Positions 11,165 to 25,321 of a stretch of 64,000 bases of DNA are shown here, in pieces. The position numbers were made by a program, and so were the translations under genes. The notes beneath the pieces are model-generated. The model did not search any database. It saw nothing but the letters and a program-made list of their open reading frames with translations, and was not told the DNA's origin. This DNA comes from a virus: positions 181,523 through 245,522 of IMG/VR virus record IMGVR_UViG_3300025770_001492. One strand, 5' to 3'. Within the stretch, counting starts at the first letter, position 1, and the number at the start of each line of letters is the position of its first letter.

Positions 11165-11734
11165 ATGAAATTTAGAGAATTTTTACTAAACGAAGACAGC
11201 AAATATTTAAGTGAAAAAATAGGCGGTATTTTGAGCATATTGCACGCTACCCAAGAAGATAAAGACGGACTTGGGAGCAGAGACATTGAAACTTATGCAC
11301 AAAAAGTTATCAATCAAATAAAGCCAATTTTAAACATTTCAAAAGGATCGAAGGATGTGCAACGATCCCTTCAGAAAGTCGCAGTAGCAATATCAATTGC
11401 AATGGAAGAAAAAAAAGGAGACGAACTCTTGGACATTATGTCAAAATCTTCCCAAATTATAGAAAAATTGTTATCTGATATGGGAAGCCCGATTCAAGAT
11501 TTGGGAACCCCTCCTGAGGCCGGAAAGCCACAAGACCAAGATTCGGCACTTCAGCCTCCGATTGAACCAGAAACGCCAGAGCAGCCTCCTGTCGATCCCT
11601 CACAGCCTCAGCAACCTGCTCCTGTCGATCCCTCACAGCCTCAGCAACCTGCTCCTGTCGATCCCTCACAGCCTCAGCAACCTGCTCCTGTCGATCCAAG
11701 ACAAGCACAGCGGCTTTCTTTGCCACAAGGATAG
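11165..11734 (+). CDS. Capsid-targeting-like N terminus, helical domain and PQQPAPVDPSQ repeats
   Basis: Unrecognised 189-residue protein. It starts MKFREFLLNEDSKYLSEK, a strong copy of the shared N-terminal tag. Residues 20-100 look like a compact helical domain, and the C-terminal third has a tandem 11-residue unit V-D-P-S-Q-P-Q-Q-P-A-P repeated about three times, coded by 33-bp DNA repeats near 11594-11694. The layout (tag, small domain, Pro/Gln tail) parallels the protein at 963. I infer a virion-internal protein. Confidence 0.72.
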   Translation: MKFREFLLNEDSKYLSEKIGGILSILHATQEDKDGLGSRDIETYAQKVINQIKPILNISKGSKDVQRSLQKVAVAISIAMEEKKGDELLDIMSKSSQIIEKLLSDMGSPIQDLGTPPEAGKPQDQDSALQPPIEPETPEQPPVDPSQPQQPAPVDPSQPQQPAPVDPSQPQQPAPVDPRQAQRLSLPQG

Positions 11735-11745
11735 AAATTCATAAC

Positions 11746-12177
11746 ATGATAAGTCACAAGCACCTAATGATAAGGGCAGAAGTCCAGAATCCCATAAAAA
11801 CCACTGAATCTGCATTTACTTGGATGGAGAAACTGGTTGATTCGATTGGGATGGTCATTTGCCCAAATGGAGGGCCTCATGTCCACTATGTAAATAAAGA
11901 AAACAACTGCGGCATTGCCGCAGTTGTTATGATTGAAACGAGCCATTGCAGTTTGCATGTTTGGGACAAGGCAGATCCGCCATTGGTTCAGTTTGATGTG
12001 TATTCTTGTTCAGATTATGAAGTTTCAAAGGTACTGGAGCTTTTGAATGAAATGAAACCTACGAAAGTGTGGTGGAAATTATTCAATAGAGAAAGTATAA
12101 TAAAAGAAGAAGATAATAGTTTTAAAGACTATGCCATCACACTCAAGTCAGATGACTGTTTGCGTGAATTATTTTAA
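11746..12177 (+). CDS. speD: S-adenosylmethionine decarboxylase-like proenzyme
   Basis: The 143-residue protein resembles small prokaryotic AdoMet decarboxylases, which self-cleave to make a pyruvoyl cofactor and supply aminopropyl groups for spermidine. The core ETSHCSLHVWDK near 66 aligns with the S-E-S-H-x-T-I-H-x-W cleavage segment of bacterial SpeD, and DVYSCSD near 84 aligns with the D-V-F-x-C-G-D active-site cysteine segment. The motif match is partial, so function is probable, not certain. Similar genes occur in cyanophages, where polyamine supply may help pack DNA. It is followed closely by an amidotransferase gene. Confidence 0.72.
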   Translation: MISHKHLMIRAEVQNPIKTTESAFTWMEKLVDSIGMVICPNGGPHVHYVNKENNCGIAAVVMIETSHCSLHVWDKADPPLVQFDVYSCSDYEVSKVLELLNEMKPTKVWWKLFNRESIIKEEDNSFKDYAITLKSDDCLRELF

Positions 12178-14429: not shown

Positions 14430-15161
14430 CTAGTATATCTGTACCTGCTGCTTGTCTGAAATATGTACAGTGTCACCAAAATCCATCTGAAACCAAACGT
14501 TATAAATCCCACAATCCATCTCAGTCGTGTCAAGGTAATAGTACCCAACACATTTCTCTCTAAGCTCTACAAGTTCGCAATCTACTACTAATCTGAGGTC
14601 CTGTTCAGCAGGCATACATTCTCCACACTCTTGTTCGATAGACACTTTAAGAGGAGACACTATAGCTAAGTTTTGATAATACCTATTCAGATCGCTAGTC
14701 TTAGGGACATTTGGAGTAATGTCTATTATTAAATAATTTTTTGAACCTTGTCTAATTTTATTTGGTCTAAAAGAAAAATCAAATCCATACACAACAGGAA
14801 CAGGAGAAGTGAACCAAAGGTCAGGAAAGATTTCAAAGCTGTTCTCAATCTGAGCCTCAGTTTCGCCAGATTCAACCTCAACAGTCCAGACATCTGAATA
14901 CCTTCCTATTGTGTAGACTGCTTGCTCCAATTCAACAGATGTTGAATATTGTCCAGTAGAATCAAGGCTAACATCTGCCGACTCTATAGTTTGAACTAAC
15001 CTTTTGCCATCTGGATTCGCTGCTGTTTTTTCGTCATCAAAAGCGTATATTTCCACCTTAGTGACAGAATTAAAATTACGATAGTTATTTGAATTATATG
15101 CAAATACTCGTAATTTTAATTCATCACCGACAACGGGGTTTTGAAATCTTTCTTTAGACAT
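14430..15161 (-). CDS. Virion structural protein, Ig-like/beta-sandwich type
   Basis: The 243-residue protein has repeated beta-rich segments with phrases such as GDELKLRVFAYNSN, VEIYAFDDE, STGQYSTSVEL and CVGYYYLDTT, and a cysteine-rich stretch EQECGECMPAEQD. The Y-Y-L-D-x-T phrase and the overall strand pattern resemble the N-terminal domains of the fibre-like proteins at 58361 and 59981. It follows the gp26-like baseplate gene in the same direction and is probably a tail or baseplate accessory. Function is inferred from context. Confidence 0.6.
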   Translation of the reverse strand: MSKERFQNPVVGDELKLRVFAYNSNNYRNFNSVTKVEIYAFDDEKTAANPDGKRLVQTIESADVSLDSTGQYSTSVELEQAVYTIGRYSDVWTVEVESGETEAQIENSFEIFPDLWFTSPVPVVYGFDFSFRPNKIRQGSKNYLIIDITPNVPKTSDLNRYYQNLAIVSPLKVSIEQECGECMPAEQDLRLVVDCELVELREKCVGYYYLDTTEMDCGIYNVWFQMDFGDTVHISDKQQVQIY

Positions 15162-15171
15162 TTAACTAACC

Positions 15172-15426
15172 TTATTTTTTAGCTTTTCTTCTAGCTGCTT
15201 CCATCGCTTCGTTTTCACGATTTTTTTGTTTTATAAATCGCTCAATTATCCACTTCCGTTCATTGACAGGTATTTGCAAACATTGTGCCCTGCCCATCCG
15301 AAGATGATACTGGAAGAAAAATATTTCTTCCATTAAGTTTTCCCAAAGAATAATCGACGGATCAGTTGCTAGTTCACCTACTGGGTCGTTCGGGTTTTCT
15401 TCTTTGCCCTTGGGAAGAAAAAATTT
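15172..15426 (-). CDS. -1 frame extension of the gp26-like gene (tail assembly chaperone-like)
   Basis: This open frame overlaps the end of the gp26-like gene in the -1 frame and has no suitable start codon of its own except an internal ATG. It reads on as FFLPKGKEENPNDPVGEL, then LWENLMEEIFFFQYHLRMG and PVNERKWIIERFIKQ, ending RRKAKK. The W...F-x-Y-H...E-R-x-W pattern resembles short C-terminal parts of tail assembly chaperones. At 15426-15420 the minus strand has the slippery heptamer A_AAT_TTT in the zero frame, directly followed by T_TTT_TTC. Slippage would give a 436-residue product beside the 367-residue one. I see no strong stimulatory hairpin. Confidence 0.7.
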   Translation of the reverse strand, partial: KFFLPKGKEENPNDPVGELATDPSIILWENLMEEIFFFQYHLRMGRAQCLQIPVNERKWIIERFIKQKNRENEAMEAARRKAKK

Positions 15427-16481
15427 GATTCCAAAGGCAGTTCTACCTCAAATTCCTCCATTGTGAATGGGCTTGTAATTTCAACCGTTGTGTCTACACC
15501 AAAAGGCGGCTCATTCACAGAATTTCTAAGGTAGGAAACATCATTGACTGAAAGTCTCTTGAGCAATTCTAGAATTTCATGCTGATTAGTCAGACCTTCT
15601 AGGTCTGTAATTAAAAGCGAAGTCCTATAGAGAAGAGTATCGTCAGCTTGTTCTACGCCTCCAAATTCCTTGTTCTTTCTTTCTCTGTATTCTTGAACTT
15701 TGATGTCATCCGTTCCAGTTGCCAATCTGTAAGAGAAGTTAAGGCCACTAGTTGGAAGCGTGTCTCCTAAGCTGTTCAAATCAAAGTCATAAGGGCATTC
15801 ATCTACAAACAAGCTGTTTAAATCAATCACGGTGGAAAACTTTTTATTTGTAAAAGGACACGTAAGCTGTACGTCGTATTCTGGCGTATAGGATATGCCT
15901 CTTAGAAACAACAATAGATATGTTCTATCAGAACTGAGCCACTTGGATGTATCGAAATCATCCTGCATGCACTTTCTGAATATCATGTCAATAGCTTTTC
16001 CCTGCTTGACGAATCTCGGAGTGGCTAGAATTTGCTCTTCTGCACCTGTCATCGGACGGACCTTAACAACCCCATCAGTAGGACCATCTGTGCCATCATA
16101 GAATTTTCCCTTTGATGGCAAATTGATTTCTTCATAGTTGAAAGTTGCCCCTGATACAGCACTAATCAACTCTTCCAGCCGATTGCTTCCGGTAGTTCTC
16201 AGATTAGGAGAATCAGAATACTGTTGCTCTGGCCTTGGTTGAGGACCGTTTTTAGAGGGTCCTTGTTCGCCTTTTACGTTTTGCTGCGCTTGTAAAAACT
16301 GCTGAGGGACGCTCCCGGAAATAGAAACTCCTTTATCTCCAGCAGGTTGTTGCGGAGTTTCTCCCGTTTCGGCAGCAACAGCTTCACGAACAGCTTGCCC
16401 TGCATTCATTGGGTTATCACCAGATTCTACGTCTGATGGATTAACTGGTTGTCTGTCTTGACGGAATGTATCTTCTGCCAT
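15378..16481 (-). CDS. 26: Baseplate hub protein, T4 gp26-like
   Basis: The first ~110 residues are disordered (Gln, Pro, Gly rich). The domain after that has NLPSKGKFYDG near 122, VKVRPMTGAEEQILATPR near 138 and KQGKAIDMIFRKCM near 160, the hallmark of the T4 gp26 hub family, then FLRGISYTPEY near 193 and TCPFTNKKF near 210. It acts in assembling the central baseplate hub. A GGGGAGA ribosome site precedes the ATG. Its 3' end carries tandem slippery sequences and overlaps a -1 frame extension. It is longer than T4 gp26 because of the disordered N terminus. Confidence 0.82.
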   Translation of the reverse strand: MAEDTFRQDRQPVNPSDVESGDNPMNAGQAVREAVAAETGETPQQPAGDKGVSISGSVPQQFLQAQQNVKGEQGPSKNGPQPRPEQQYSDSPNLRTTGSNRLEELISAVSGATFNYEEINLPSKGKFYDGTDGPTDGVVKVRPMTGAEEQILATPRFVKQGKAIDMIFRKCMQDDFDTSKWLSSDRTYLLLFLRGISYTPEYDVQLTCPFTNKKFSTVIDLNSLFVDECPYDFDLNSLGDTLPTSGLNFSYRLATGTDDIKVQEYRERKNKEFGGVEQADDTLLYRTSLLITDLEGLTNQHEILELLKRLSVNDVSYLRNSVNEPPFGVDTTVEITSPFTMEEFEVELPLESNFFFPRAKKKTRTTQ

Positions 16482-18546: not shown

Positions 18547-19500
18547 TTAATATACAACTTTAGTTTCTTCTAAGATTTTATTACAACTTGAAATCATTTT
18601 TTTAGGATATTCTTTGTATTTTGTGATGTCCACTGGCCAGTCATCGTTCGATAGTCTTTTTTCCCCCATTAGAATTCCATTTAAGTATAAGCTTTTGGCT
18701 TTTTTATAATTTTTCATTTGATAGTAAATATCAGCCAGTAGACACCAAAACTCTGCCATTAACGGCCTTACCGCCAAGCACGGTAAAATTTGTTGAATTG
18801 ATTTTTTATAATCTTTTTCATGAGTTAAAAAAACAATTGCCATATAGTATTTCATCATGACGACTGATTTTCCTTGACCTTCTTGGAAAAGGTATCGGTT
18901 TGCTTCATTTATAAAATGTTCATACTCTCCCATTCGCAACAAGTTGCATGCTTTGTAGTAAATGGGACCTGATAGTGTGGGACTGTCTTTCATCCAATTT
19001 TCTACAATTTCAAGTTTCTCTTTAGGATTTTGAATTTCCTGCGAGAACACTACAACAGGTATCAGGTTCGAGCATTGTATGTCAACATGTTCGTGAACAG
19101 GGTTTTTGTACTTCAAGGATTTATCTTCATTCCATATTCGAACTTCTTTGGTTATGTTTTTATTTTGCATAACTTGAATTAAATACGCAGTAGAAGCGGC
19201 ATCTTCTTCGTTTAGCAACTGAATTTTGTCATGCCCTTTAACCAAGAACTCCCAAGGCTCTAGAAAAAATATCCATTTTGATTTTGTTTTTTCTATTAAT
19301 TTGTTTTTAGCCTTGCTGAAATCTTTTTCCCACTTAATTTTGTATATGTCGCAATTAAATTTTTTGCATATTTTTAAAGTGTCATCTGTGCTTCCCAAAT
19401 CTCCTATTACTATTTGGCAATCAATTGAAAATATAGATGTTAAGCATTTTTCTATAGTTTTACTATTGTTTTTTGTCAGCAGGCAGATCGACAACGACAT
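18547..19500 (-). CDS. Family 2 glycosyltransferase with TPR-like tail
   Basis: The 317-residue protein starts SICLLTKNNSKTIEKCLTSI and has IGDLGSTDDTLKIC near 34 and WIFFLEPWEFL near 76, a GT2 pattern (the last corresponds to the DxD region but with E-P-W-E). This resembles the SunS-like/GT2 proteins that carry C-terminal TPR repeats; residues about 180-280 include LADIYYQMKNYKKAKSLYLNG, a TPR-like helix pair. It probably transfers a sugar to a protein or glycan. The donor is unknown. Its start overlaps the upstream small gene by 38 bp. Confidence 0.75.
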   Translation of the reverse strand: MSLSICLLTKNNSKTIEKCLTSIFSIDCQIVIGDLGSTDDTLKICKKFNCDIYKIKWEKDFSKAKNKLIEKTKSKWIFFLEPWEFLVKGHDKIQLLNEEDAASTAYLIQVMQNKNITKEVRIWNEDKSLKYKNPVHEHVDIQCSNLIPVVVFSQEIQNPKEKLEIVENWMKDSPTLSGPIYYKACNLLRMGEYEHFINEANRYLFQEGQGKSVVMMKYYMAIVFLTHEKDYKKSIQQILPCLAVRPLMAEFWCLLADIYYQMKNYKKAKSLYLNGILMGEKRLSNDDWPVDITKYKEYPKKMISSCNKILEETKVVY

Positions 19501-20904: not shown

Positions 20905-21417
20905 TTATTGTGTTATTATGTAAGCTCTGTCGTATCTTAAGGTTAATTCGCAAACCACATGTTCGGAATCACCATAATCTAAATCTCCAAAGTCTACGCT
21001 TTGAGGATATAGGTTTTCGTATCGCCATATTTCTATAGGGTCGCCACAGCCACTTAGCATTGAAAGGTCCCCATTCTTTTTGAATCCTTCATTTGGCACG
21101 TCCCATTCCCCATTGTTGTTTCCGCCAGGGTTGTATATCTCCTGAATCCAGCCAAATATTGGATGATATTGTTTTGCCAAATCATATAACACTAGTGTTA
21201 TAGGTTTCCAATCGGGTTTCACGGGGTAATATATTGTTTCATTTAGATGTTGAGCTTCCTGTTCTTTGAAGTCTATAGAGGGCCTAGCAGATTTACTTGG
21301 AGGCAATGAGTTAACGCCTGATTGAGATATTCCTGGTATAGAAAACTCCCATCTAAACTTTTGCTTCCAGCATAAGCTTTTTCTTTCAAGTCCAAAATCA
21401 AGTCCCATATTAGCCAT
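20905..21417 (-). CDS. 19: Tail tube protein, T4 gp19-like, copy 1
   Basis: The 170-residue protein begins MANMGLDFGLERKSLCWKQK and has the gp19 pattern: K-x-K-F-R-W-E-F near 20, a P-V-K-P-D-W-x-P-I-T-L-V-L-Y-D segment near 68, and DFGDLDYGDSEHVVCELTLR near the end. It forms the inner tube of the contractile tail through which DNA passes. It shares its first residues and C-terminal motif with the second copy at 22284 but is shorter. Between the copies lies a sulfotransferase gene, which overlaps this one by 8 bp. Confidence 0.85.
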   Translation of the reverse strand: MANMGLDFGLERKSLCWKQKFRWEFSIPGISQSGVNSLPPSKSARPSIDFKEQEAQHLNETIYYPVKPDWKPITLVLYDLAKQYHPIFGWIQEIYNPGGNNNGEWDVPNEGFKKNGDLSMLSGCGDPIEIWRYENLYPQSVDFGDLDYGDSEHVVCELTLRYDRAYIITQ

Positions 21418-22201
21418 TTTTGTATCCCAATTCTTGCATGTAAGTTTTTAATTTTGAGTATTTTTCAAACATCTCGTTTTTTCTTTTGTCGCCAAGTTTA
21501 AAATCTCTTTCATCATCTGGAGAAGCTTTATGGATAACTTTCCATTCTGAGATAAATTTATCTGTTTCAGTCGTTTTTAGTTCTCCTAAAAATCTTAAAA
21601 GATCGCAAATTATTTCTTCTTTTTCTTCATTGCTTTTTTGCGACAACTTATCTATTTGAAACAAAAAAGATTCATTATTGCTTTTGTAAAATTCATAAGA
21701 TTTTATCCAAAGATCTATCCATTCTTCTAGATTTTGTTTTTTTACAAAAGTATTTTTTTGAGATTCAAAGGATAAAAAAGGATCTCTAATGCAAACTATC
21801 CACTTTGCGTTGTTCCAAACTCTTTTAAGAGTCTCAACTTCTTTTTTTCTTGCGCATAGCCATAATGCTTTGTGCCCCCATTTTGTTTGTCCTGGTTTTT
21901 GATTTCCGTATCCTGAAATAAATTCATAAATCATTTTTCTCCAAATTGATTCACACCTTTGCGGATTACTACCGGAGTAGTGTGGAATTGCATAGTCTTT
22001 AACCGTTTTGCTCTTGTTTGATTTTTCCCCCCACTCTCCAGCTTGTATCATTTTATCAAGCCATTGTGTACTTTCTTTCCAAGATAACTTAGGCTCTTGC
22101 CCGTGTATGTATATGTTGGGGTGAGAGCATAAAAAAAATTGCATCCATGTGGTTCCACTTCGAGGCGGTCCAGTTATGACTATAGGGTTATCGTATTGCA
22201 T
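21410..22201 (-). CDS. Sulfotransferase
   Basis: The 263-residue protein starts with the PAPS-binding loop VITGPPRSGTTWMQFFL near 9, and CIRDPFLSFESQKNTF near 137 matches the 3'-phosphate-binding segment (R-D-P...S) of the sulfotransferase family. It would move sulfate from PAPS to a hydroxyl or amine, probably on a glycan. It sits between two tail tube genes, an odd place that suggests a late insertion. A second, unrelated-looking sulfotransferase lies at 61761. Confidence 0.85.
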   Translation of the reverse strand: MQYDNPIVITGPPRSGTTWMQFFLCSHPNIYIHGQEPKLSWKESTQWLDKMIQAGEWGEKSNKSKTVKDYAIPHYSGSNPQRCESIWRKMIYEFISGYGNQKPGQTKWGHKALWLCARKKEVETLKRVWNNAKWIVCIRDPFLSFESQKNTFVKKQNLEEWIDLWIKSYEFYKSNNESFLFQIDKLSQKSNEEKEEIICDLLRFLGELKTTETDKFISEWKVIHKASPDDERDFKLGDKRKNEMFEKYSKLKTYMQELGYKNG

Positions 22202-22283: not shown

Positions 22284-22877
22284 CTAGCTAACTGTTCCTA
22301 GTACAGTTCCTCCAGATGTACCAGTACAAGGACCACAACAGCTTTGTGGCGTGTAACCAGGACAAACTGATCTATAATCAACCGAAGCATATCTCAACGT
22401 TAGCTCGATTGTTGACTCTTCGGAACTAGAATAGTCTAGTTCTCCAAAGTTCATGGCTGTTGGCCACATATCGTTCAATACCCAAGTTTCGAGAACGTTT
22501 CCACAACCGTCAAACAGGTTGAGCGTTCCACGACCAGAGTAGTGAATTCTTTGAGATCCCTGCTTAAGGGCGACAGGATCTGTAAATTCATAGACACTGG
22601 CAAGCCAGTTCCATAAAGGTGCGTTATCTATAGTAGCAACGTCATAGTATGTTACTGTAATTGTTTCCCAAGTCGCTTTGCCTGGAATAAAGGTCTTAGC
22701 GTTTTGGAAATTAATTTCCGTTTCTTCAATTGATAGGTTTGGTCTCGAAGCGATTTTAACAAAGTGTTCTTCAACGGATTGTCCACCGCAAATTTCATCT
22801 ACACGAAAAGTCCAACGGAACTTTCTCTTGAAGATCAATTGAGAACCACCTAATTTTCCAATTCCCATGTTTGCCAT
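22284..22877 (-). CDS. 19: Tail tube protein, T4 gp19-like, copy 2
   Basis: The 197-residue protein begins MANMGIGKLGGSQLIFKRKF and has F-R-W-T-F-R-V, then KATWETITVTYYD near 68 and NFGELDYSSSEESTIELTLR near 145, the same framework as the copy at 20905. It carries an extra cysteine-rich tail (CPGYTPQSCCGPC). It is next to the sheath gene as in other T4-like phages, so it may be the main tube; the other may be a tip or minor tube. AGGAG precedes the ATG. Confidence 0.87.
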   Translation of the reverse strand: MANMGIGKLGGSQLIFKRKFRWTFRVDEICGGQSVEEHFVKIASRPNLSIEETEINFQNAKTFIPGKATWETITVTYYDVATIDNAPLWNWLASVYEFTDPVALKQGSQRIHYSGRGTLNLFDGCGNVLETWVLNDMWPTAMNFGELDYSSSEESTIELTLRYASVDYRSVCPGYTPQSCCGPCTGTSGGTVLGTVS

Positions 22878-22963: not shown

Positions 22964-25321
22964 TTAGAACGTGTCAGCATTCTCTGCGAAGCTGCCAGTT
23001 CTGTGAACGCTGAATTCTATAAACATAAATTCAACGGCTCTTGTTGGTTGAACACCGATTCTCGCTCGGAACTCATTTCGATCTATTACATCTGGTGTGT
23101 TAAGCTCTTCATCGGCTTGGATGATGAAGTCGGTTAAACCACGACCAATTTGAACTTCTCTAAGAATTTCAGTTGAAATGTCAACAAATCTTTGTCTAAA
23201 GACTTCGTCATGTGGATCGAAAAGTAAACCTCTCGAAGCTTGTCTAATTCTCTTTTCAAGAACAAAGAGAAGCCTTCTGACATTAACACGATCCAGTGCT
23301 GTAGGTCTTCTTTGAAGAGTCTTTTGACCCCATACAAGGAAACCATCAAAATCGCTAAAGTTCACGATAGGATTAACAGCGTTTCTATTTCCGTACATTA
23401 AGTCTCTTTCTTCAAGAGTTGGACGGGAATAAACATCTGAAATTCCAGGAACGATACCACGATTTGCACCAGCGGGAGCAAACCAAGGTTCTGCTAATTG
23501 ATCACTTCTTGCATAAACTGCCATCACTGACCCAGATGGTGGAACCCAAACATCTACTCTATTGAAGTTGTCTCTTACCTTGACCCAAGGCCAGTAAAGA
23601 GCACCAAAGTCACTATCAAATCTAGTAGTGTTTAGAGGGTGAGCACCGTTCTGCCATTGAACTATTTCATCAACAGTTAGACCGAATGGTGGGTCTATCA
23701 ACGCCAGACAATCCTGTCTAAAGTTTTCACAAACGTCCAGCATAGCAAGAACGATTGATGTAGATGGATGACCTGGAACAGCAATCAAATCAATGTCGAT
23801 TTGCTCTGGCTCAGATAAGGCATAAAGCCCACTGTATGACAGAGAGTTTCCAATGATTAGAGCATCTTGATCGTCTGGATCTGATGGAATTCCATCACTA
23901 CCGCCTGCAAGGCTGTATGTTCCATCCAGTGGCGGTGCAAGAGTGGCTGTGTTGTCTTGAACACGAACCCAATCTGATACCAATGTCAGGAATGTTTCTA
24001 CGTAGAACCTACTAGAGGAATCTTTAACAAGGTTGCCCCAAGATTCTACTTGATTGGAATCATTGTAGACATCCATAGTGAAAACGCCTTCTCTAGTATC
24101 GTTTTTAATAACGACTTGAGTTGCGTTTCCATCAACACCAGCACTATCTGCTGTAAGGGTGAAACTGTTAGTACTGGCAACAGAGTTTCCAGTTACAATT
24201 CCGTATGTTTCAACAGCAGCATCTCCGCTTACACCAGATGGGCTTGCACCCTCTGCTGTGACACCATCAAAATCAAACAATGAAGCAGCGGTGCTTTCTG
24301 TTTTGATTAAGAGTCGTGCGTCTCGTCCGTGATGCAGAGTTTGAAGCGTTAGGTTGTCACCAGTTGCAACAGCTTCAAATCCGCCAGGAATATCTCCATT
24401 AGTAATTTGAAGATTGATTTCCGTTAGAACTTCAAGAGTTGTTTTTTCTGCACCTTCTAGAACGGCCAAGTCAACAACTTGAACCACATTGTCGATAAGA
24501 ACATTGTCTGTTCCGTCAACAACAATTAAAAGCTGAAGATTAGAAAGACCAGTGAAGTCCCATTCTCCTGGTCCTTGATATCCATCTACTGGATATCTGT
24601 CTTCGCCAGAAGTAGAAGCAGCAATAGTCATTCCTGTTCCTAGTCCTGTTACAGAACTAGAACCACCATAGATAGCATCTTGAACAGATACCAGTTCTAA
24701 AGAAGCGTCTGGTCCATATGCGAATGTGCTTTCGACTGCAATTCTATTTGATCCGTCGCATGTGAACTGAATTCCGTCAACTGTTGAATCGAGTTGATCA
24801 TTTAAAGCTTCTGCCAGATCTTCACATGTGTATGGGCCTGGTGTTGTTCTGTTGGCGTCTGCCAACACAACCAAAGTTTTAGATGCTAAAACTCCATTCA
24901 GTTTCCAGCGGAAAAATGAATCGTCGCCAAACGAATATGTTTCTGCTGTGTCTGATTGAATTATGATTTGACCACCTGCAACAGGTACGTCAAATTCAGC
25001 AGTAGTGGCACGTTCGTCACTGACTGCGTCTTGGTCGCCAACTCTAACTACGTATAGTTCGTTAGCAACTAATAAATATTGCTCGGCAGCGTAAATCAAG
25101 TAGGGATCACCACTCTCAGGATGTGGATATCCAAATACTGTGTGTAGTTCTCTACTTGTTCTCACAACAGTAGGAATATTAATTGGGCCTTTACTTGCAA
25201 ACCCAACTAATCCTGCTCTGTGAAAAGACTGCTCAGGAGCAATAAAAGATAAATCTTTTTCAGCAATTCGAACGCTTGGTGAAATTGTGTTCGAAGGCGG
25301 AAATCCCCTTAATATCGCCAT
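22964..25321 (-). CDS. 18: Contractile tail sheath protein, T4 gp18-like
   Basis: The 785-residue protein has the classic sheath start (PSVRIAEKDLSF near 15, GLVGFASKGPINIPT near 37, LYVVRVGDQDA near 88) and the conserved C terminus (NRVDVWVPPSGSVMAVYARS, GFLVWGQKTLQ, RVNVRRLLFVLEKRIRQAS, EFMFIEFSV). The sheath surrounds the tube and contracts on infection. It is longer than T4 gp18 (659) because of an enlarged, beta-rich middle region. GGGAG lies upstream of the ATG. This is the most confidently assigned structural gene in the window. Confidence 0.95.
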   Translation of the reverse strand: MAILRGFPPSNTISPSVRIAEKDLSFIAPEQSFHRAGLVGFASKGPINIPTVVRTSRELHTVFGYPHPESGDPYLIYAAEQYLLVANELYVVRVGDQDAVSDERATTAEFDVPVAGGQIIIQSDTAETYSFGDDSFFRWKLNGVLASKTLVVLADANRTTPGPYTCEDLAEALNDQLDSTVDGIQFTCDGSNRIAVESTFAYGPDASLELVSVQDAIYGGSSSVTGLGTGMTIAASTSGEDRYPVDGYQGPGEWDFTGLSNLQLLIVVDGTDNVLIDNVVQVVDLAVLEGAEKTTLEVLTEINLQITNGDIPGGFEAVATGDNLTLQTLHHGRDARLLIKTESTAASLFDFDGVTAEGASPSGVSGDAAVETYGIVTGNSVASTNSFTLTADSAGVDGNATQVVIKNDTREGVFTMDVYNDSNQVESWGNLVKDSSSRFYVETFLTLVSDWVRVQDNTATLAPPLDGTYSLAGGSDGIPSDPDDQDALIIGNSLSYSGLYALSEPEQIDIDLIAVPGHPSTSIVLAMLDVCENFRQDCLALIDPPFGLTVDEIVQWQNGAHPLNTTRFDSDFGALYWPWVKVRDNFNRVDVWVPPSGSVMAVYARSDQLAEPWFAPAGANRGIVPGISDVYSRPTLEERDLMYGNRNAVNPIVNFSDFDGFLVWGQKTLQRRPTALDRVNVRRLLFVLEKRIRQASRGLLFDPHDEVFRQRFVDISTEILREVQIGRGLTDFIIQADEELNTPDVIDRNEFRARIGVQPTRAVEFMFIEFSVHRTGSFAENADTF

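Follow-up and report, generated by a model that had tools for sequence, protein, structure and literature searches.

A gp26-like gene in the viral DNA analysed here (64,000 nucleotides, hereafter the window) very probably uses -1 programmed frameshifting to make a short and a long form of the tail assembly chaperone (TAC) of a T4-type contractile-tailed phage. The majority of ribosomes would terminate at the zero-frame stop codon (TAG, 15380..15378, minus strand) and release a short form of 367 residues. Some would carry Phe tRNAs in the P and A sites on UUU_UUC, slip by -1 on U_UUU_UUC and re-pair on UUU_UUU. These ribosomes would read 81 more codons and yield a long form of 436 residues with a C-terminal helical domain. 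An overlapping A_AAU_UUU, present in 11 of 16 relatives, may assist the slippage. Both forms may then act together in tail or hub assembly like lambda gpG and gpGT, the short form coating the tape measure and the extension recruiting tail subunits. We infer both the slippage in vivo and the chaperone role of the two forms from the sequence. Two reasons lead us to propose a chaperone pair: lambda gpG/gpGT (PMC5009743) provides an analogy, and gp26 and gp51 are described as hub assembly chaperones, T4 gp51 being required and absent from the final particle (PMC3004832). The predicted short and long forms share the N-terminal domain.

The features of the locus are collected in Table 1. The zero-frame codons around the slip site are TCA AAT TTT TTC TTC CCA. 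A preliminary description of this DNA had reported two consecutive slippery heptamers near the end of the gene. Both are indeed present in the X_XXY_YYZ phase of the zero frame; however, they are not consecutive, because T_TTT_TTC overlaps A_AAT_TTT by four bases. The same description had named A_AAT_TTT first; of the two, T_TTT_TTC is the conserved heptamer. Past the slip, the -1 frame runs from 15417 to 15175 (81 codons; peptide LPKGKEENPND...RRKAKK) and then meets TAA (15174..15172). Reading of the frames therefore predicts a fusion of 355 + 81 = 436 residues, which is the length given originally. In the window, the ORFs of at least 150 aa comprise 17,338 codons with 160 zero-frame heptamers, 18 of them T_TTT_TTN. 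Among these 160, only the heptamers of the gp26-like gene are associated with a -1 frame that continues for at least 30 codons beyond the stop. The uniqueness of this continuation in the window, together with the invariance of the slip codons in the relatives (see below), upholds the original proposal of a probable programmed -1 frameshift.

Table 1. Coordinates of the gp26-like locus and of neighbouring tail genes in the window.
Feature	Position	Strand	Remarks
gp26-like gene, short form (TAC-N-like)	15378..16481	-	367 aa; PF12322 and phrog_150 matches
Slippery heptamer T_TTT_TTC, zero frame	15417..15423	-	main conserved slip site (predicted); 16/16 relatives
Slippery heptamer A_AAT_TTT, zero frame, overlapping T_TTT_TTC	15420..15426	-	11/16 relatives
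Zero/-1 overlap, slip to zero-frame stop codon	15378..15417	-	40 nt
-1-frame extension (TAC-C-like, three-helix domain)	15172..15417	-	81 codons + stop
Sole start-codon ORF in the -1 frame	15172..15333	-	53 aa; ATG; no Shine-Dalgarno
Gene of unknown function just past the extension stop	14430..15161	-	243 aa; no significant Pfam/PHROG match
Tail sheath gene, upstream, same strand	22964..25321	-	phrog_23, E 9e-78; PF17482
T4 gp19-like tail tube gene 1	22284..22877	-	PF06841, E 6e-7, just under the curated cut-off
T4 gp19-like tail tube gene 2	20905..21417	-	PF06841, E 1e-8, above the curated cut-off

The gp26-like protein matched PF12322 (T4_baseplate) with an E value of 1e-11 (45.4 bits, as against a curated cut-off of 24.5) and phrog_150 (baseplate hub) with an E value of 7e-16. 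When the viral library was searched with Foldseek, only proteins of the gp26/gp51 family were returned, the best being the SP-15 baseplate hub subunit (E 1.7e-19). The AF2 model of the extension is a confident three-helix domain (pLDDT 84; helices 20-38, 43-47 and 51-80). DUF6760 (PF20546) matched the extension of the window with 18.3 bits, which is under its curated cut-off of 27, and matched the extensions of 10 of 15 relatives with E values below 0.1. Pfam matches of the extension to Tma16 and ApaG were rejected as helix-composition matches.

Judged by its sequence, the extension is without an initiation site of its own, as had been noticed at the outset. The first ATG, GTG or TTG codon of the -1 frame is an internal ATG (15333..15331), which leaves 53 aa and omits the conserved LP...LW part. 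The sequence 5' of this ATG (TTCTTTGGGAAAACTTAATG) contains no Shine-Dalgarno (SD) sequence. This 53-aa ORF is probably not a standalone gene. Near the heptamer, we found no clear upstream SD-like stimulatory element. On its 3' side, no conserved RNA stimulator was found (mean z of -0.9, as compared with -0.3 in control windows). A 10-bp stem directly behind the heptamer (TTCCCAAGGG / TTCTTTGGGAA) was considered as a stimulator and rejected: it leaves no spacer, its z is -0.8 and it is not conserved. Neither a stimulatory structure nor an SD element is obligatory for bacterial -1 frameshifting.

We aligned the codons of 16 distinct genes, namely those of the window, of IMG/VR relatives (43-54% identity) and of the 595-kb phage LR756511. 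The relatives were found by single-protein scans, because the family-wide alignment was too diverse for scanning the collection. T_TTT_TTC is present in every one of the aligned genes. Where A_AAT_TTT is missing, TTT is preceded by GAT, AGT, GGT or C_AAT, and LR756511 has an overlapping G_GGU_UUU. At 102 conserved degenerate positions, the only codons that are invariant in the 16 genes are the Phe codons TTT TTC TTC of the slip site; the other 99 vary. The share of TTT among the Phe codons of the aligned genes is 36%, and the commonest codon has a mean share of 51% over all positions. The TTT of the slip site lies 5' of the dual-coded stretch, so that the overlapping frame does not account for its invariance. 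Conservation of the FF motif is seen in the protein as well, and T4 gp26 ends with KEFFELL. Therefore, the T-richness of the slip site is partly due to the FF residues; the choice of TTT is not so explained. As far as codon comparison can tell, the slip site is kept at the nucleotide level beyond the need of the protein.

The extension peptide is conserved in the 15 aligned relatives. Furthermore, 99 IMG/VR contigs contain a 20-base signature (GARGCAAATTTTTTCTTCCC), and 97 of them are long enough to judge. In all 97 complete contigs (93 scored by an automatic motif test and four by eye), the zero frame encodes the gp26 C-terminus and the -1 frame encodes the extension. The 93 automatically counted contigs contain 68 distinct extension peptides, and 28 of the 93 have no start codon before the FFxYH motif.

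The same arrangement, T_TTT_TTY with a -1 extension, was found in the phages Atu_ph07, PA5oct, XacN1 and RAS14, in 121Q, GAP32, Munch, XaC1, Phosso and Vibrio 2.275.O (121Q/GAP32-like jumbo phages included), and in the cyanophage-type genomes S-RIM8 and C48C1. The -1 frame of these phages opens merely 0-15 nt 5' of the heptamer, and in PA5oct this frame holds no ATG, GTG or TTG anywhere. Database records mostly show either a truncated ORF with an internal ATG as its start or a "baseplate hub assembly catalyst". A search of homologues for the heptamer and the overlap had been proposed as a check; the overlap is carried by the 16 relatives, the 97 contigs and a dozen isolate genomes.

In Pseudomonas phage Cygsa01 (L065, 4280-4330), the gp26-like gene has no heptamer and the next ORF starts at a TAATG overlap. 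A switch to reinitiation is possible in this phage. Because Cygsa01 is without any heptamer, the frameshift mechanism is not universal in the family.

Both gp26 and gp51 of T4 match PF12322 over its full length, and gp51 has about 48 residues more. T4 has two copies of PF12322 over the cut-off and is the only such record among those searched; the frameshift phages have one. With PHROG 634 (phrog_634, "baseplate hub assembly catalyst"), the S-RIM8 extension gave a match of 2e-30, and gp51 gave one of 1e-23 over its residues 147-246. In hhalign, the cyanophage extension and the C-terminus of gp51 gave a probability of 96%, and none of 60 column shuffles reached the score. Comparison of extension profiles gave 96% for the window and Mel-JY01, 97% for the window and SP-15, 96% for Mel-JY01 and SP-15, 95% for Mel-JY01 and the jumbo phages, and 61% for the jumbo phages and gp51. 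None of the column-shuffled profiles reached any of the nine scores tested (0/60 each). The resemblance to tail assembly chaperone tails that had been suggested for the extension is supported. The direct profile match between the window extension and gp51 is weak (0.5%), and therefore the link to the gp51-type C-terminal domain runs by a chain of profile matches. Through this chain, the predicted long form bears a gp51-type C-terminal domain. Thus, T4 seems to have two paralogous genes for the two forms, gp26 being the short and gp51 the long one.

In another group, the relatives of Microcystis phage Mel-JY01, the frame is different. At least 600 IMG/VR stretches matched this group and 80 were fetched (L071-L150). 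Of the 64 Mel-JY01-like loci analysed, 62 encode the homologous extension in the +1 frame, as do 10 of 12 loci of a related set (L151-L168). The zero frame reads TTT TTT TGG CCT, with the extension directly behind (e.g. L071, 3840-3880). At 85 conserved degenerate positions in 59 distinct genes, no codons are invariant other than TTT TTT and CCT; CCT is dual-coded and TTT TTT is not. Nineteen of these 59 genes have no start codon before codon 16 of the extension; in one, an ATG is accompanied by an SD-like 4-mer. Because TTC TTT TGG variants keep only four T, -2 slippage and transcriptional slippage are disfavoured. The simplest reading is that the P-site Phe tRNA would slip by +1, from UUU to UUU, before UGG. 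SP-15, LIS04, GXN1 and LR756508 likewise have the extension in the +1 frame. Contigs related to the Mel-JY01-like group were also found in Flavobacteriales MAGs. The Mel-JY01-like clade is apparently less expected than the -1 case. If the reading is true, a conserved +1 programmed frameshift that produces a tail chaperone would be a new variant.

Two Bacteroidota eCIS-like loci (L288, 965-1729; L289, 762-1526) have a tube gene followed by one open frame of 255 aa. In this frame, PF12322 continues into DUF6760, and the junction (...MQSFFMLRL...) has the same FF. This in-frame fusion is an independent indication that both domains belong in one chain. In a further eCIS-like locus (L182, 580-960, minus strand), a sheath gene, a tube gene and a gene for a 123 aa CPQC protein are followed by DUF6760 in an overlapping -1 frame. 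The overlap is TCG GGG GAA TCA TAG, and the DUF6760 frame has no evident start. A frameshift in this eCIS chaperone gene is possible.

Taking these groups together, we see about an even chance that recoding takes place at the same Phe-Phe end of the N-domain throughout and that its direction depends on the lineage. The direction would be -1 on U_UUU_UUY in the window clade, the jumbo phages and the cyanophages, and +1 on UUU_U (TTT_TTT_TGG_CCT) in the very abundant Mel-JY01-like clade. T4 would have gene duplication instead, and some eCIS-like loci an in-frame fusion.

In the window, the sheath gene and both tube genes lie upstream of the gp26-like gene and share its strand. A tape measure gene was not recognised in this genome when the rest of the contig was searched too; the classic neighbour is thus missing. 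The gene order in SP-15 and LIS04 is sheath, tube, gp26-like gene and tape measure. A plasmid search gave no SP-15-like copies. Other genes of the region were noted in passing. Between the two tube genes, an ORF (21410-22201, minus strand) begins with a sulfotransferase-like P-loop (VITGPPRSGTTW), as judged by eye. A glycosyltransferase-like protein (18547-19500, minus strand; phrog_13126, 7e-21) is encoded within the tail gene region. By eye, we also noticed an ORF with tandem PVDPSQPQQPA repeats (11165-11734, plus strand) and, after it, a SpeD/AdoMet-decarboxylase-like ORF (11746-12177).

It is very unlikely that the extension forms a small gene of its own, comparable to the annotated "gp51" of cyanophages, and is translated after initiation at an internal ATG or reinitiation past the gp26-like stop, with the two domains acting as separate chains. 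Such ORFs are annotated in many phages, and the window itself contains the 53-aa ATG ORF. In addition, the heptamer of 121Q is accompanied by a TAATG start. However, the ATG of the window has no SD sequence, all possible starts in the window lie 3' of the beginning of the conserved region, and the startless frames of PA5oct and of more than a quarter of the scored relatives (28/93) are difficult to reconcile with a gene of its own. A separate gene also leaves the codon-level invariance of the slip site unexplained, and T4 gp51 and the eCIS-like ORFs have both domains fused in frame. The preliminary description had stated that homologues with a separate downstream gene, having its own start and no slippery sequence, would speak against frameshifting. 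Only Cygsa01, with its TAATG overlap, is of this kind, compared with dozens that have the heptamer. Transcriptional slippage on the T6 run, by which one U is added in part of the mRNAs, would give the identical -1 fusion, and a homopolymer run is present at the site. Transcriptional slippage usually requires longer runs. The run here is only six T, the codons TTT TTC TTC for FFF avoid a longer run in all 16 genes, and the conserved element is exactly the heptamer that allows tandem re-pairing. We consider this explanation highly improbable.

A further alternative accepts the frameshift and regards the long form as a minor component of the virion (baseplate hub) instead of a chaperone that is absent from the particle. 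The family is annotated as "baseplate hub", and according to older genetics cited in PMC3004832, gp26 is part of the T4 hub. The same review, however, has gp51 outside the final particle and counts both gp26 and gp51 among the hub assembly chaperones. Moreover, the position of the gene before the tape measure gene in SP-15-like phages and the published TAC assignment, as conveyed by the papers that cite it, favour a chaperone. A virion component is therefore unlikely. Finally, the contig is metagenome-derived, and an assembly error or a decayed frame (pseudogene, sequencing indel) might be suspected. Against this, some 97 other contigs and a dozen isolate genomes share the overlap, and the extension is constrained at the protein level. 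The possibility is practically negligible; we count it as refuted by conservation. Frameshifting that produces both chaperone forms is the reading that we prefer.

Frameshifting is reportedly conserved in several T4-like groups, and T4 is said to use genes 26 and 51. The preliminary description knew of no such case in the T4 gp26 family, and on this point it was mistaken. Vladimirov, Gautam & Davidson (Virology 2022, 566:9-15) identified the tail assembly chaperone genes of T4-like phages (via PMC10885494 and PMC12846349). As cited in PMC10885494, some T4-like phages have separate short and long TAC genes; as cited in PMC12846349, TAC-N genes of T4-like phages have poly-T -1 frameshift signals. 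The frameshift of phage Adele (PMC12846349) concerns another family. Going by these citations, -1 frameshifting in gp26/gp51-type chaperones is already reported, and the locus in the window is a divergent further case. In jumbo phages and cyanophages, the small "baseplate hub assembly catalyst" ORFs probably represent the end of a longer chaperone that is reached by frameshifting, and the view of T4 gp26 and gp51 as a short and long chaperone pair gains support. One family seems to hold -1 frameshift, +1-frame, gene-duplication and in-frame-fusion answers to one stoichiometry problem. With such apparent variety in one family, how and why the direction of recoding changes becomes directly testable.

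The locus resembles lambda gpG/gpGT in having a short form and a predicted low-level -1 extended form, a position in the tail cluster and a startless extension. In contrast, the lambda heptamer is G_GGA_AAG, and the tape measure gene is not adjacent in the genome studied here. In sequence and fold searches for a relation to lambda gpG/T or any solved TAC, neither domain had a PDB match with an E value of 0.001 or less. Bacillus phage 0305phi8-36 has a two-gene TAC (PMC2147016), with short and long paralogues instead of a frameshift, as in T4; its proteins differ in being reported as lambda-G-like helical proteins, with no frameshift. In cyanophages and marine vibriophages, gp51 was found to be without its first approximately 200 residues, and frameshifting was not mentioned (Sullivan et al. 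2010, PMC3037559). The small ORF is the same, lying over the 3' end of gene 26 and equivalent to the C-terminus of gp51. It was called a shortened gene there, whereas S-RIM8 and C48C1 show T_TTT_TTY with a -1 extension here. The frameshift offers an explanation for this "reduced" gp51. The closest systems are the T4-like gp26 (TAC-N) and gp51 (TAC-NC) and their frameshifted orthologues, which share with the window the Pfam family, short and long forms with a common N-terminal domain, a poly-T -1 site and a C-terminal domain related via the profile chain (PHROG 634 for gp51). The window differs from them in that its clade, of metagenomic jumbo phages, is divergent and has a disordered region at the N-terminus and an extension of distinct sequence; where T4 has two genes, the window has one gene that is predicted to be frameshifted.
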